5,988 nt of DNA from an uncultured Eubacterium sp. (GTDB lineage Bacteria > Bacillota_A > Clostridia > Lachnospirales > Lachnospiraceae): assembly GCA_948759685.1 (NCBI GenBank), contig CAQBGY010000212.1:1-5988 (forward strand), given 5' to 3'. Under the pieces are notes generated by a model. That model saw only the letters and a program-made list of their open reading frames with translations. It was not told the DNA's origin and searched no databases. The translations under genes and the position numbers were made by a program. Below, in pieces: positions 1 to 5,988 of the stretch. How positions within the stretch are numbered: the stretch's first letter is position 1; each line of letters starts with the position of its first letter.

Positions 1-1822
1 TTGATAAGTCTACGTTTTCAAGCGTGAATAATGGTTTTCCATTGTCGTCTGTCGTAAAGATGTTTTCATATGCTGATTTAAGTGAATCAAATGTTGGTTT
101 AAGTTGAGTATTGAGCTGGTCTATTGTCTCAGTGAGAGATAATGAAATGGGGTTTTCAAAGTTCGAGGTTGAATCTTGAACTTCTTTAATCTTAGCAATC
201 AGTTCATCCCAAGATAGGAGAGTACCTTCTGGAACTTTTACCTGTTCTGCCGCAATGTGTAGTTCTTCAAGTGTAAGTTCTCCCACTTTGCCGTCAAAAT
301 CGTCTTGCAGTTTTTCTTTGACGTTATTTACAAGTGTATCAATAGAATTGTTTACCTCAATTGGAATAACAATCCCATTACTGTTACAATATGATTGAAT
401 CTCTTGCAATGCAGAATTGATTCTATTTGTATAATTCTGTACAGTCTCATCATCTGCAATAGGTGTATAGAAATCAACCATTGCTTGTTTTGTAGCTTCA
501 TTATTGAACAGTGACACAAAATCACTTTCAAATGATTGTAATGCTGTTTGGTTAAATAACTCATTTTGCTTTATAAATTCATCATCTATAGAAGCATAAA
601 GAGAATTAATTACAGATATTACATTTTCATCATCAATTTTCCAGTAGTCACTATCTGCATAGAGCATATTCTGAAACGCAGTTCTGATATTTGCAACTCT
701 ATCTGTAATTCCCTTTTCCATAACGCTCATTCTGTTGTTGAATACATCATGTACAGCATTATAGTTTTCAGCAGAAATTTCAGATATTTCATAACCAGCC
801 TCTTTTAACACTCTAGCTAAATATACATATTCAGTTGTACCAGCTCTTAATTTTCCTAAATCTTCAAGTGTTGCGTCTGTAACATCAGACAACCATCCAT
901 GAATTTTATCATATCCATAATACTCTTCAAATTCTTCTGCGGTATTTTGACCAGAGGGTGATGTTTTTGCTCCTAAAACTCCTTGATATCCATTGACAAA
1001 ATCATTATAATCCTCAAAGAAACTTTTAATAGAATTTCCCTCTTCGTCACCGTTTGACAAAAATAGTGCAGCTTTTGTACGAATTGCCTCTTTGTAAGAA
1101 TCAGTTAAACTATTAACTTTTCCTTGCAATGTAATAATTGCTTCGCCTTCGGCAGTATATCCAGTGATTAATTCTGGCATTATTTGTCCGACTTGTTGGC
1201 AGATATCTAAGAACTCAGCATATTCTTCTTCAGTACCACCAACCTTTTTGCCATTATCATCTATATTCTTGCTTAATTCATCAAATCTGTCTGATAGTGA
1301 AGATATGGTTTTTAAATTTGTTTGTGTCTCATTAAAGAATGATGATAAACTTTCTTTGAAAGCGTTGGCAGATTCTTTAGCTTCTTTAGCTGTAACAATC
1401 CATTCATCAACTTTTCCGATTAACCAACTAATACCCTGTATAATAGCAGTAAATGCTATCATATTTAAAGCGGTCGAGAATAATTTTACTGCTTTTGAAG
1501 CAATACCAGCACCAATAGATACCTCTTGTAATGCAGAATTTGTTGCTCTTTGTGCATTTGCATATGATTGTGCGGTTCCAGTACCAGCTTTTACCTTTGC
1601 AGAGTACTCAACAGCAGAAGCACTTGCTTTATGCATAATGGCATCAAATTGTTCAGTAGTAACCGTTCCATTTTGACATGCAACCTGATATTCTTTCAAA
1701 CATGCAATATCAATTTCTAACTGTGCAGTTGCTTGTTGCTGTGCAATTTTTCTTGCTTGTAATGCACCTACAATTTTTTGACCAGATAATGTTGTTTCAT
1801 CTGTAATTGTCTTGAATATCAT
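1..1822 (-). CDS. Phage tail tape-measure-like protein, partial (C-terminus off the left edge)
   Basis: An uninterrupted minus-strand frame of 607 codons from ATG 1822 runs off the window edge, with no stop. The product begins MIFKTITDET. It is rich in Ala, Gln, Glu, Ser and Thr, with long predicted helical stretches and one hydrophobic segment at about residues 103-137 (around KLFSTALNMIAFTAIIQGI), followed by many acidic helices. A long helical protein with an internal hydrophobic segment, including the local pattern EEYAEFLDICQQVGQIMPEL, resembles the very large tape-measure proteins of Clostridia siphophages and prophages. Those set tail length and help DNA pass the membrane. Oddities: no ribosome binding site lies before ATG 1822; the frame stays open back only to a TAA at 1852-1850; and its first codons lie inside a promoter element repeated at 4301-4331. 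The N-terminus may therefore have been cut by insertion of the neighbouring cassette. Family call from pattern recognition only. Confidence 0.75.
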   Translation of the reverse strand, partial: MIFKTITDETTLSGQKIVGALQARKIAQQQATAQLEIDIACLKEYQVACQNGTVTTEQFDAIMHKASASAVEYSAKVKAGTGTAQSYANAQRATNSALQEVSIGAGIASKAVKLFSTALNMIAFTAIIQGISWLIGKVDEWIVTAKEAKESANAFKESLSSFFNETQTNLKTISSLSDRFDELSKNIDDNGKKVGGTEEEYAEFLDICQQVGQIMPELITGYTAEGEAIITLQGKVNSLTDSYKEAIRTKAALFLSNGDEEGNSIKSFFEDYNDFVNGYQGVLGAKTSPSGQNTAEEFEEYYGYDKIHGWLSDVTDATLEDLGKLRAGTTEYVYLARVLKEAGYEISEISAENYNAVHDVFNNRMSVMEKGITDRVANIRTAFQNMLYADSDYWKIDDENVISVINSLYASIDDEFIKQNELFNQTALQSFESDFVSLFNNEATKQAMVDFYTPIADDETVQNYTNRINSALQEIQSYCNSNGIVIPIEVNNSIDTLVNNVKEKLQDDFDGKVGELTLEELHIAAEQVKVPEGTLLSWDELIAKIKEVQDSTSNFENPISLSLTETIDQLNTQLKPTFDSLKSAYENIFTTDDNGKPLFTLENVDLS

Positions 1823-1833: not shown

Positions 1834-1925
1834 TGTATAATTGTGGAGATTATACATTGTGCAGATTGTGGATATCTGCATTAGCATATTGTGGAGATAT
1901 GCTTTAACGCTATGTGGAGTAGCGT
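1834..1925 (+). repeat. Tandem array of four hairpins with invariant TGTGGA(G/T) loops (leader RNA)
   Basis: Four perfect inverted repeats lie almost back to back, separated by 2-3 bases. Hairpin 1 (1834-1856) has stem TGTATAAT/ATTATACA and loop TGTGGAG. Hairpin 2 (1860-1880) has stem TGCAGAT/ATCTGCA and loop TGTGGAT. Hairpin 3 (1883-1903) has stem AGCATAT/ATATGCT and loop TGTGGAG. Hairpin 4 (1907-1925) has stem ACGCTA/TAGCGT and loop TGTGGAG. Stem sequences differ completely but pairing is perfect, while the loop is fixed; that is the signature of an RNA element read through its loop. The array fills the leader between the promoter-like element and the ribosome binding site of the membrane-protein gene. 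Function unknown; candidates are an RNA-binding regulator (GGA in a loop recalls CsrA sites, but the flanks do not match) or ribosome standby through GGAG. Confidence 0.85.
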
Positions 1926-1958: not shown

Positions 1959-2618
1959 ATGTCTAAGAAAATTATTGCTTTATCAACAATGTTGTTATCT
2001 GTATTGTTAGTATTGGTTACTGTTGAAACTGTTACAGGTAGAGGTTTGTTGGAAGGACAGTGTACTTTTTATCAAACAATTTCGCCATTTGGAAAATATT
2101 TTAATCTGTCGCAAAGCGATAAATTACCTATGCAATGGTTGGGAATAATAATGTTCATTATTGGAATTTTGTTATTATTTGTGCCAAATTTTGTGCTGTT
2201 TGAACATTCAAAGAAAAGAAGTATAATACTTGTAATTATCAATATTATAGGTATTATTCTTGGTTTTCTCTTTTTTCAATCGTATTCATATATGTTTATG
2301 CTAATAATATTATGCATTCTATTAGTTTGTAATATTTTTATTCAGTTTTTTAATGGCATCAGAAGTCGAAGCGATATGTCTGTTTTAATATTGACTTCTC
2401 TTATTGGAGTGTTAAATATTTACTATTTGTTTCATCATTTTATGATGTATAAACAATTAGATACTTGGTACTTTAATGATGCATTTGACAGAATGACCAG
2501 AGAAATGATTCACATCTCCAGAATCAATATAGTATGCCTAGCCCTGTGGCTTATTCCTTATGGAATACTGCTGGTGAGAGAAATTAAGGATAATGGCAAT
2601 AAGTCTGTAAAGTCATAG
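1959..2618 (+). CDS. Six-helix integral membrane protein, hypothetical
   Basis: This encodes 219 residues of unrecognised family. Hydrophobic segments are visible at about residues 4-24, 59-81, 88-106, 110-131, 140-161 and 189-207, so a polytopic cytoplasmic-membrane protein with six helices is likely. A hydrophilic loop of about 34 residues (25-58, with one Cys at 35) separates helices 1 and 2, and the C-terminal tail is short and basic. The first segment has a Lys-Lys start and could be an uncleaved signal anchor. Start ATG 1959 is supported by AAGGGG at 1944-1949, nine bases upstream; a second G-rich stretch, TAGGG (1950-1954), lies closer. The gene is a stand-alone unit with its own promoter-like element, hairpin leader and strong terminator. 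A role in superinfection exclusion or phage defence fits the setting, but nothing in the sequence shows it. Confidence 0.82.
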   Translation: MSKKIIALSTMLLSVLLVLVTVETVTGRGLLEGQCTFYQTISPFGKYFNLSQSDKLPMQWLGIIMFIIGILLLFVPNFVLFEHSKKRSIILVIINIIGIILGFLFFQSYSYMFMLIILCILLVCNIFIQFFNGIRSRSDMSVLILTSLIGVLNIYYLFHHFMMYKQLDTWYFNDAFDRMTREMIHISRINIVCLALWLIPYGILLVREIKDNGNKSVKS

Positions 2619-2718: not shown

Positions 2719-2757
2719 ATGTTCTGGGTATCAAAAATATACAACTAATGGTACAAT
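2719..2757 (+). promoter_or_regulatory. Probable promoter of the DUF262 gene, with partial shared upstream element
   Basis: TGGTACAAT at 2749-2757 is an extended -10 (TG, one base, TACAAT). Initiation would be near 2764 and would leave a short leader before AGGAGGA at 2774-2780. Upstream, ATGTTCTG..TATCA (2719-2733) matches 13 of 15 positions with the element at 4308-4322 before the zinc-ribbon gene, differing only as GG for AA. No convincing -35 hexamer is seen for the 2752 hexamer; TTGAAA at 2711-2716 is too far away. No hairpin of the TGTGGA type occurs here. Confidence 0.45.
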
Positions 2758-2789
2758 ATATTTACCAACATTTAGGAGGATATCGTTCT

Positions 2790-4238
2790 ATGGCACGAAA
2801 GAAGAAAATTCTTAGTCCTACATATACAGAGCTAATTGTACCAACATATGAAGCAATAAAGCAATTAGGAAATTCAGCTACTAATGAAGAGATTTATAAT
2901 AAAATTATTGAAAATTTAAATTTGCCTTATGATGTAATTCACGAACCGCATGGAAAAAATTTGGGCAGAGGTGAATTAGAATATCAACTTGCATGGGCAA
3001 GAACTTATTTAAAAAATTATGGTGTTATAAAAAGTATTAAAAGAGGTACATGGGAGATAGAACCATCTTTTGTTGGAGATATCCAATTAAATTATAGAGA
3101 AGTGATTGACTATACAGCGCATAAAAAACAAAAATCAGATAATAATGTAGAAAATAATAGTGAAAATTTTCAAAATGAGGACGTTGATGATCTAACAGAG
3201 GATAACAAATATATTTCTGATGTTGAACAACCTGAAAATGCAAATTTATATATAAAAAGCCTGATTGACTCGTGGGAAACTAAAGATTTAAAAATACCTT
3301 TCTTTCAAAGAAAGTTTGTTTGGACTTTACGTCAGGCAAGTTTGTTTATAGAATCATTATTGTCTAATTTACCAATTCCAGCACTTATGTTTTATAAAGA
3401 TGCTGATGATTTTCAATATATAATAGATGGACAACAACGAACAAAAAGCATTCTTTATTTTACAGGTGCAATAAAACCCGATGAAGTTGATGATGATAAT
3501 AAAAAATTTTTAAATTTTAGATTAATCGGATTAGCAGATGATAGCCCTTACAAAAATAAAACATTTGCTGGACTTGATCCTTCCATAAAAAGAAAATTAT
3601 TAAACCGCACATTGCCAATAACCACAGTAAAGGTAAATGATGATAATGATTTACCTAAAATTTTTGAGATTTTTCGTAGACTTAATACAGGCGGCACTCC
3701 TTTAACTAAGCAAGAAATTAGAAATTGTATTTGTGCAGGTAATTTTAATGAGTTTCTTATTGATTTAAATAAAAACAAAGAATGGCAATCATTTATTACC
3801 AGCGAGAACGATAGAAAAAGGCAACGTGATGTTGAATTAATATTACGATTTTTTGCTTTATATGAAACCTATAAACAATACAAAAGACCAATGGATGAAT
3901 TTTTAACATTATATTTTGAAGCACATAGAAATATTGACGAATCTGAAAGGAATGAGAAAACCACACTTTTTACAACGGTTGTGTCAGCCATATATAATAA
4001 TTTAGGGAGAAGACCGTTCCATATAAAAAATGGTTTGAACTCTGGAGTATGTGATTCGGTTATGGTAGCTTTTGCAAATAATATTAACAATATTCCGTTG
4101 AATATAAAGGATCGATTCTTTGCTTTGACGCATAACGATGAATTTTATAAATATTGCGGCAAAAATATTAACGACAATGAATCTGTACAATGTAGGATAC
4201 AGATTGCAACAGAGTATCTTTTTGGTGACGCAGAATGA
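2790..4238 (+). CDS. Mrr_N-DUF262 (GmrSD/DGQQR-type) restriction-like protein
   Basis: The product is 482 residues. Residues ~8-88 fit the Mrr N-terminal winged-helix domain (Mrr_N): helix starting IVPTYEAIKQLG, the ATNEEIYNKI segment, then GRGELEYQLAWARTYLKNYG and a basic RGTWEI strand. An acidic, Asn-rich linker (~110-150) follows. Residues ~150-480 are DUF262, with IPFFQRKFVW at 169-178, the signature DGQQRT at 213-218 and FRRLNTGG at 295-302. In GmrSD-type type IV restriction and in SspE or BrxU proteins, DUF262 is the nucleotide-dependent part and DUF1524 the HNH nuclease. No HNH motif is seen here, so the protein has DUF262 alone plus a probable DNA-reading winged helix. Start 2790 is chosen over an in-frame ATG at 2748 because AGGAGGA (2774-2780) sits nine bases before it and the upstream ATG precedes the likely -10. 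A stand-alone gene with its own terminator. Phage-defence role inferred from the family. Confidence 0.9.
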   Translation: MARKKKILSPTYTELIVPTYEAIKQLGNSATNEEIYNKIIENLNLPYDVIHEPHGKNLGRGELEYQLAWARTYLKNYGVIKSIKRGTWEIEPSFVGDIQLNYREVIDYTAHKKQKSDNNVENNSENFQNEDVDDLTEDNKYISDVEQPENANLYIKSLIDSWETKDLKIPFFQRKFVWTLRQASLFIESLLSNLPIPALMFYKDADDFQYIIDGQQRTKSILYFTGAIKPDEVDDDNKKFLNFRLIGLADDSPYKNKTFAGLDPSIKRKLLNRTLPITTVKVNDDNDLPKIFEIFRRLNTGGTPLTKQEIRNCICAGNFNEFLIDLNKNKEWQSFITSENDRKRQRDVELILRFFALYETYKQYKRPMDEFLTLYFEAHRNIDESERNEKTTLFTTVVSAIYNNLGRRPFHIKNGLNSGVCDSVMVAFANNINNIPLNIKDRFFALTHNDEFYKYCGKNINDNESVQCRIQIATEYLFGDAE

Positions 4239-4244
4239 TATCTT

Positions 4245-4274
4245 AAAGACTCATCAAATCAGGTGAGTCTTTTT
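4245..4274 (+). terminator. Rho-independent terminator of the DUF262 gene
   Basis: A perfect 9-bp stem, AAAGACTCA (4245-4253) with TGAGTCTTT (4264-4272), continues into a T run to 4274. It begins six bases after the stop codon, so the DUF262 gene is closed off from the next gene. Confidence 0.85.
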
Positions 4275-4300
4275 AATATCCAAAACAGTTATCAATTTTA

Positions 4301-4331
4301 CTGTCAAATGTTCTGAATATCATACTATAAT
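4301..4331 (+). promoter_or_regulatory. Promoter-like element before the second hairpin leader
   Basis: CTGTCA (4301-4306) is a fair -35. TACTAT (4323-4328) or a perfect TATAAT (4326-4331) is the -10, giving spacers of 16 or 19 bases. TGAATATCATACTATAA (4314-4330) is identical to the element before the membrane-protein gene. The expected start at about 4335-4338 again coincides with the first base pairs of the first hairpin. Confidence 0.65.
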
Positions 4332-4335
4332 TTGT

Positions 4336-4406
4336 GTGTATTGTGGATATACACTTTTCGTACTTTGTGGAGAAGTACTTGATTTATACTTTGTGGAGAA
4401 GTATAA
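4336..4406 (+). repeat. Tandem array of three hairpins with invariant TGTGGA(G/T) loops (leader RNA)
   Basis: Three perfect inverted repeats are separated by 5 bases each. Hairpin A (4336-4354) has stem GTGTAT/ATACAC and loop TGTGGAT. Hairpin B (4360-4378) has stem GTACTT/AAGTAC and loop TGTGGAG. Hairpin C (4384-4406) has stem TTATACTT/AAGTATAA and loop TGTGGAG. The loop rule is the same as in the array at 1834-1925, with different stems, and the position is also the same: directly after the shared promoter element and before the ribosome binding site (AGGAG 4421-4425). B and C share five arm bases (TACTT), suggesting duplication. The function is unknown. Confidence 0.85.
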
Positions 4407-4434: not shown

Positions 4435-4773
4435 ATGATATATGAGAGAATATGTTATATGTGTCCTAAATGTAATCAAGGGTGTTTCTTCAATAAAGCA
4501 GAAGAGTATTCAACAATCTGTCCTATATGTAATGTTGAAATGAGGGATATGGGAAGTGAGTTTGTAGACTCCGAAATGGAAAAAATGAAAACTGAAAAAT
4601 TTCAGAGGGCGTTACAAAATCCCACTCCTTTGGTTAATTGCCCATATTGTAATTCGGCAAATGTTACTAAGATTTCAACAGTTTCCAAAGTAGTAGATAC
4701 AGCGGTTTGGGGTATCTTTGGTACTAAGAGACTTAAACAATGGCATTGTAATAAGTGTGGTTCTGATTTTTAA
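4435..4773 (+). CDS. Double zinc-ribbon protein, phage-associated type
   Basis: The product is 112 residues with two four-cysteine clusters. The first is Cys10-x2-Cys13 with Cys29-x2-Cys32 (CPKC/CPIC), an N-terminal zinc ribbon; extra Cys7 and Cys17 lie nearby. The second is Cys69-x2-Cys72 (CPYC) with Cys105-x2-Cys108, ending KQWHCNKCGSDF. Between the second pair lies STVSKVVDTAVWGIFGTKRL, a short hydrophobic and basic stretch. This C-terminal ribbon looks like one common in phage and mobile-element proteins of Firmicutes, usually annotated hypothetical. It probably binds zinc structurally and may contact nucleic acid or protein; no enzyme motif is seen. Start ATG 4435 has AGGAG at 4421-4425, nine bases away. 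Its leader carries the three-hairpin array, and it ends before a two-way terminator. Whether this small protein itself recognises the TGTGGA loops is an attractive but untested idea. Confidence 0.85.
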   Translation: MIYERICYMCPKCNQGCFFNKAEEYSTICPICNVEMRDMGSEFVDSEMEKMKTEKFQRALQNPTPLVNCPYCNSANVTKISTVSKVVDTAVWGIFGTKRLKQWHCNKCGSDF

Positions 4774-5970: not shown

Positions 5971-5988
5971 AGATCGGAAGAGCGTCGT
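5971..5988. other. Illumina TruSeq adapter remnant at the contig end (artefact)
   Basis: The last 18 bases, AGATCGGAAGAGCGTCGT, are identical to the start of the Illumina TruSeq universal adapter in reverse complement. This is untrimmed library sequence, not genome. It marks the true end of biological sequence at about 5970 and warns that this end of the contig may rest on few reads. Confidence 0.97.

Follow-up and report, generated by a model that had tools for sequence, protein, structure and literature searches.

Hairpin array as the probable 3′-terminal domain of a cargo-carrying group I intron in Lachnospiraceae phage tape-measure genes

Results and Discussion

The four tandem hairpins at positions 1834 to 1925 of the window, the whole 5,988-nucleotide stretch of DNA analyzed here, probably form the 3′-terminal domain of a cargo-carrying group I intron that lies on the minus strand, in the tail tape-measure gene of a Lachnospiraceae phage. 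Sequence comparisons reveal a split gene, an exact junction between its halves, a guide that pairs with both exons, and, for one of the three intron types, the core of a group I intron; we infer from these that splicing occurs and that the window's own intron type is catalytic. In transcript order, exon 1 (ending KNxG) would be followed by a structured 5′ domain with the guide, passenger genes, the array with its CUCCACA loops just before the 3′ splice site, AUAGUAUG, and exon 2 (IFKT...). Splicing would join the G to the I and remove everything between. The features of the window are as follows.

2 to 1819, minus strand: exon 2 of the tail tape-measure gene (IFKTITDETT...), running off the contig; identified by PHROG 4211 and by alignment to L187
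1819 to 1822, minus strand: predicted 3′ splice site, ...ATAGTATG + ATATTC..., placed by KNxG/IFK homologs and by the P10 of relatives, which starts from ATATTC
1834 to 1856, minus strand: hairpin 1, 8 bp; plus-strand loop TGTGGAG (1842 to 1848), sense loop CUCCACA
1860 to 1880, minus strand: hairpin 2, 7 bp; plus-strand loop TGTGGAT, sense loop AUCCACA
1883 to 1903, minus strand: hairpin 3, 7 bp; plus-strand loop TGTGGAG
1907 to 1925, minus strand: hairpin 4, 6 bp; plus-strand loop TGTGGAG
1959 to 2618, plus strand: cargo gene 1, antisense to the intron; 219 aa, a membrane protein by sequence, with no Pfam family over the cut-off
2748 to 4238, plus strand: cargo gene 2, defence-like, with Mrr_N and GmrSD_N (DUF262) domains (Pfam 9.7e-27 and 4.1e-11; PADLOC NsnA 7.9e-62)
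4273 to 4320, minus strand: orphan exon-2-like fragment IFRTFDSKIDNCFGY (ending in a stop), beside the second array
4336 to 4406, minus strand: second hairpin array, three hairpins with stems of 6, 6, and 8 bp
4435 to 4773, plus strand: cargo gene 3, a small zinc-ribbon-like protein whose Pfam matches fall below the cut-off
5971 to 5988: AGATCGGAAGAGCGTCGT, which we take to be a residual Illumina adapter at the contig end

Hairpin arrays with variable stems and a nearly constant loop

A sequence-only reading of this DNA had described the four hairpins as a leader element of no named RNA family, placed exactly between a promoter and a ribosome site. The hairpins are as claimed, each with a 7-base loop on a perfect stem (8, 7, 7, and 6 bp), and no Rfam family matches the array; searched against Rfam, the window gives just five sub-threshold matches (E up to 5) and zero at the arrays. 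The placement fared less well, because, judged by eye, the usual place of a −10-like box is downstream of the array. All seven TGTGGA words of the window fall inside its two arrays, where 2.4 would be expected in the window by chance and 2 of 200 shuffles reach seven. In the close homolog L340, which has the same exon, the third pair of hairpin 3 is compensated (AGCATAT/ATATGCT in the window, GGCACAT/ATGTGCT in L340), the loop of hairpin 1 is changed to TGTAGAG, and hairpin 2 has a C.A mismatch.

Scans for the shared block together with TGTGGA returned 31 stretches from viral contigs and 32 from genome contigs, several of them chance matches or duplicates, and 16 of the 32 are labelled Lachnospiraceae. 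Across all loci collected we count 50 distinct arrays, with near-identical relatives counted apart. Twenty-four of these lead to an exon frame that is 300 codons long or more (three of them in G001, which has several such frames), 16 lie beside short dead exon fragments, five are inverted, and five are cut or unclear. Among the matches listed, the exon-2 block is upstream in 42 of 42 arrays, including clusters found with an array-only pattern, most arrays having been found through that block. The block is rare in the family, occurring with one mismatch allowed in 17 of 299 genomes, most of them without an array, and an exon-2 profile matches six of 150 family genomes. DNA searches of plasmids (181 bases) and of annotated phages (3021 bases) gave no matches. 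The exon-2 frames of at least 100 aa that our filter scored as lacking an array number three, two of which have array remnants.

The stems covary strongly, and the loop hardly changes. Among 118 distinct TGTGGA units (counting chance loci, and all no farther than 170 bases from the conserved block), 68 have at least five contiguous Watson-Crick pairs; shuffled 3′ arms give 1.3 such units on average and 8 at most. Sixty different 6-base stems occur among the 71 units with a stem of at least 4 bp, and the loops are mostly 20 to 26 bases apart (mode 23). A scan that leaves the loop free finds 95 hairpins of at least 5 bp in 42 arrays: 82 with TGTGGA, five with one-letter variants, and eight unrelated. 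With the last set aside, 82 of 87 hairpins have the TGTGGA loop, a constancy that is overstated because each array was picked by at least one TGTGGA hairpin. The stem compensation seen by the earlier reading thus mostly stands, at 68 units against a shuffled mean of 1.3; the invariance that it ascribed to the loop does not, since some copies drift, most strongly in L181.

The folding strand and the leader alternative

Which strand folds can be read from isolated stem mismatches. Over 107 de-duplicated units, pairs 1 to 5 show 13 A.C, three G.T, and five other mismatches on the TGTGGA strand (p = 0.02), and a broader count gives 15 A.C to two G.T. Because an A.C on the TGTGGA strand is a G.U on the opposite one, the mismatches point, as moderate evidence, to folding of the minus strand. 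Selection on RNA structure, as first proposed, agrees with a folded strand and a constrained loop, but a 5′ leader of a plus-strand gene is not supported, given the upstream exon-2 block and the apparent minus-strand fold.

CsrB/RsmZ-type RNAs and TwoAYGGAY also present hairpins with GGA loops on variable stems. A quite unlikely alternative is that the array is the leader of the plus-strand cargo genes and offers multivalent binding to an RNA-binding protein, for example CsrA, reading GGA in the loops. CsrA scores over its cut-off in 19 of the 21 genomes chosen for arrays and in 52 of 100 family genomes (Fisher p = 0.001, shared genome removed), an excess that may stem from lineage and genome size. 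Arrays also remain by cargo genes where exon 2 is dead, and a TTGTTT-N17-TATAAT promoter precedes the array, by eye, in L164, L174, and L198. Against this reading stand the strand asymmetry, which favors the minus strand and so probably the strand opposite to that of the known RNAs, the usual position of the −10-like box, the loop variants TGTAGAG and TGTGAAG, which break the GGA that a CsrA target would keep in the loops of its transcribed strand, and the missing Rfam match. A Lambda boxB-like loop on the plus strand was a further candidate. Lambda boxB is a GNR(N)A pentaloop, and this pattern fit the loop variants; we dropped it after the strand test.

A tape-measure gene split at an exact junction

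The conserved block TTTTGAATATCATACTAT, when reversed, is the start of the long minus-strand frame. In the phage contigs G320 to G324 and G328 this frame forms the second half of a tape-measure gene, and an insertion separates it from an upstream half that ends in a motif like GLGAGLFAGxKNxG. On the PHROG 4211 tape-measure profile, the window half covers positions 954 to 1376 and the upstream half of the window's closest relative, L364, covers 525 to 946. Lachnospiraceae bacterium A4 carries an array (L180) and a 5′ domain (L369) identical to those of the window's closest relative. Aligned to the intronless homolog L187, the window half begins at residue 713 and the L364 upstream half extends up to 713; its last matched I is read-through into the intron, so that the halves meet at residues 712/713. 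Intronless homologs read ...KNxG|IFK..., the exact join of both halves. Of 250 homologs found, 120 were listed: 10 read G/IF without interruption, 49 end within 60 aa past the site, two continue otherwise, and 59 are without the motif searched. The protein P0133 has KDIG joined to IFKTFDSGIDKISSKWG, which by eye is the exon-2 type of G324.

Among the tape-measure homologs P0142-P0238, several stop together at other positions and have tails that resemble one another (such as ATVEFNSDVYDSYV), a hint of additional introns. Separately, the upstream half of the G321 tape-measure gene contains a sub-threshold RF00028 match (L366:12942-13256; 36.5 bits, cut-off 50) in a different insertion, and a RAGATH-18 RNA lies over its cut-off at L366:6432-6506 (70.2 bits).

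It is very unlikely that the gene is simply split, with the array as a translational leader of a downstream half that begins MIFKT. Among 749 homologs found, 120 were listed, and 106 of these are called from MIF. However, that ATG has no Shine-Dalgarno sequence ahead of it by eye, P0060 and P0086 carry L and T in place of the M, intronless homologs lack it, and the pairing of a guide with both exons would be left unexplained. Under the group I intron reading, the ATG at the predicted 3′ splice site would belong to the intron, its G being the predicted terminal G.

Group I features of the insertion

Structured RNA follows exon 1 in 15 loci and was sorted by eye into three types, A, B, and C. 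Judged by its relatives, the window's own intron would be type A, the window itself being without the 5′ half. In nine of the 15 introns, of types A and C, six to seven exon-1 bases pair with a guide to form a P1 (G.U allowed), with a U.G at the 5′ splice site. The pairing always falls at the GCC that follows the P10 strand, and the partner changes with the exon and between types, as in GUCGGU/GCCGAC and ACAGGU/GCCUGU. This shared place counts for more than the length of the P1, because the search took the best of 90 positions. The six type B introns show no P1 of 6 to 7 bp, the best being 4 to 5 bp anywhere and 3 bp at the expected place by eye. The P10 strand of the guide matches the start of the functional exon 2 at 9 to 14 of 14 bases in 11 introns (shuffle p from <0.001 to 0.05), a pairing that would explain why TTTTGAATAT is conserved while the proteins differ. 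The terminal G is present, at a base that the search patterns had fixed.

A group I core was recognized in type B, where P3, P7, and P8 were read by eye and then counted. In six sequences, one of them cut before the second strand of P7, 99% of cells are paired, and the covariation score was reached in 0 of 500 shuffles. Four pairs are changed on both sides (7 of 500 shuffles), and further pair types do not exceed the shuffles (425 of 500). When helices were scanned freely in five of these sequences, P3 ranked third and P7 fourth. The core search in type A recognized no P3 or P7, with P1, P10, and covarying helices present. In the ten of 15 five-prime domains searched, neither the RF00028 group I model nor the Rfam group II models match in the insertion.

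Cargo genes and intron size

The passenger genes are antisense to the intron where they adjoin an array, and by eye the cargo of other insertions comprises zinc-ribbon, membrane, and lipoprotein-like genes. Proteins similar to cargo gene 3 adjoin other arrays (by eye), and a gene encoding MARKKKILSPTYTELIVPTY... (Mrr_N/DUF262-type), very similar to that at 2748-4238, is also cargo in the G323 and G328 insertions. A role in superinfection is possible for the membrane or lipoprotein cargo. The cargo had prompted the idea of polymorphic tape-measure and immunity cassettes; the intron explains the split better.

By coordinates, the insertions measure ~1.0 kb (G321), 10.4 kb (G322), and up to ~38 kb (G001); the G001 insertion also holds several arrays and genes resembling transposases. 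Two short natural introns, L184 and L164, come to ~1.3 kb and ~1.0 kb by coordinates. The longest insertions are only putatively functional introns; mitochondrial introns of up to 5 kb have been called large (PMC2987802). By inspection, the number of hairpins does not follow intron length.

At window positions 4275-4323, and in modules of L142, L173, and L178, an orphan exon-2 fragment is followed by approximately the reverse complement of its own start (TGTTTTGRATA, by eye), which makes a palindrome at the module edge. Cargo modules recur with an array and an exon-2 start fragment, inverted copies included, as would be expected if the hairpins were single-stranded recombination sites acquiring cargo cassettes. 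We rate such a DNA-level element as the least probable reading: the 1 kb G321 insertion contains no frame of at least 80 aa and hence no recombinase of its own, and both the strand asymmetry and the exon pairing speak against it.

Comparison with known introns

The insertion shares with group I introns (RF00028) a P1 with U.G, a P10, a predicted terminal G, and precise insertion in a phage gene, together with, in type B, the P3/P7 pseudoknot and P8. It differs in the lack of an Rfam match, in passenger genes that reach tens of kb in the longest cases, and in the row of fixed-loop hairpins ahead of the 3′ splice site. Group I introns also have long-range contacts, such as P14, in which peripheral hairpins pair over distance. 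P13 is another (PMC7948464); unlike these contacts, one loop is repeated here one to five times on free stems, and its partner is only proposed. IStrons join a group I intron to other mobile DNA in bacteria (PMC4227781), whereas the cargo here consists of phage accessory genes and the G321 insertion is without a transposase-sized frame. We found no description of this intron in the literature searched, which consisted mostly of abstracts.

A possible role for the fixed loop

From its position after the cargo and ahead of the 3′ splice site, the array probably serves to fold this end of the intron and carry it to the ribozyme. Stems that vary freely around a constant loop call for a partner that recognizes the loop. 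Our best guess, a lead rather than proof, is that the loops are constant because they would anchor the 3′ splice site to the 5′ domain, perhaps through base pairing with its GUGGA loops; a protein could be the reader instead of RNA. GUGGA occurs in hairpin loops of the 5′ domains in six of 11 groups, the commonest of 20 words of the same composition, where the next two words reach four of 11, raw presence is 10 of 11 compared with nine, and the groups share ancestry. One of the six is the loop of a terminator-like hairpin. In L167, L168, and L378 a long hairpin keeps the loop GUGGAG on a differing stem, and L364 is alike by eye, with a mismatch.

We also considered kissing between the array on the right and one on the left that faces it. 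Although their loops are complementary, the left one is a cargo module in inverted orientation, and none was seen in G320, G321, G323, or G324. The 16 orphan arrays beside dead exon fragments keep six perfect pairs in 25 of 42 hairpins (51 of 71 in the functional class), which is odd if arrays serve splicing only. More speculatively, and doubtful as a whole, the intron may be a cargo island for phage defence genes in which a multivalent kissing-loop array delivers the distant 3′ splice site, with several arrays as a choice of 3′ splice sites for different tape-measure halves.

Implications

If the group I intron reading is true, such introns can house islands of accessory genes, from several to tens of kb long, within an essential phage gene, and these islands would be harmless to the phage as long as splicing works. 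It would also explain why many tape-measure genes of such phages appear as two separate frames, and the array would represent an RNA device for finding a remote splice site.
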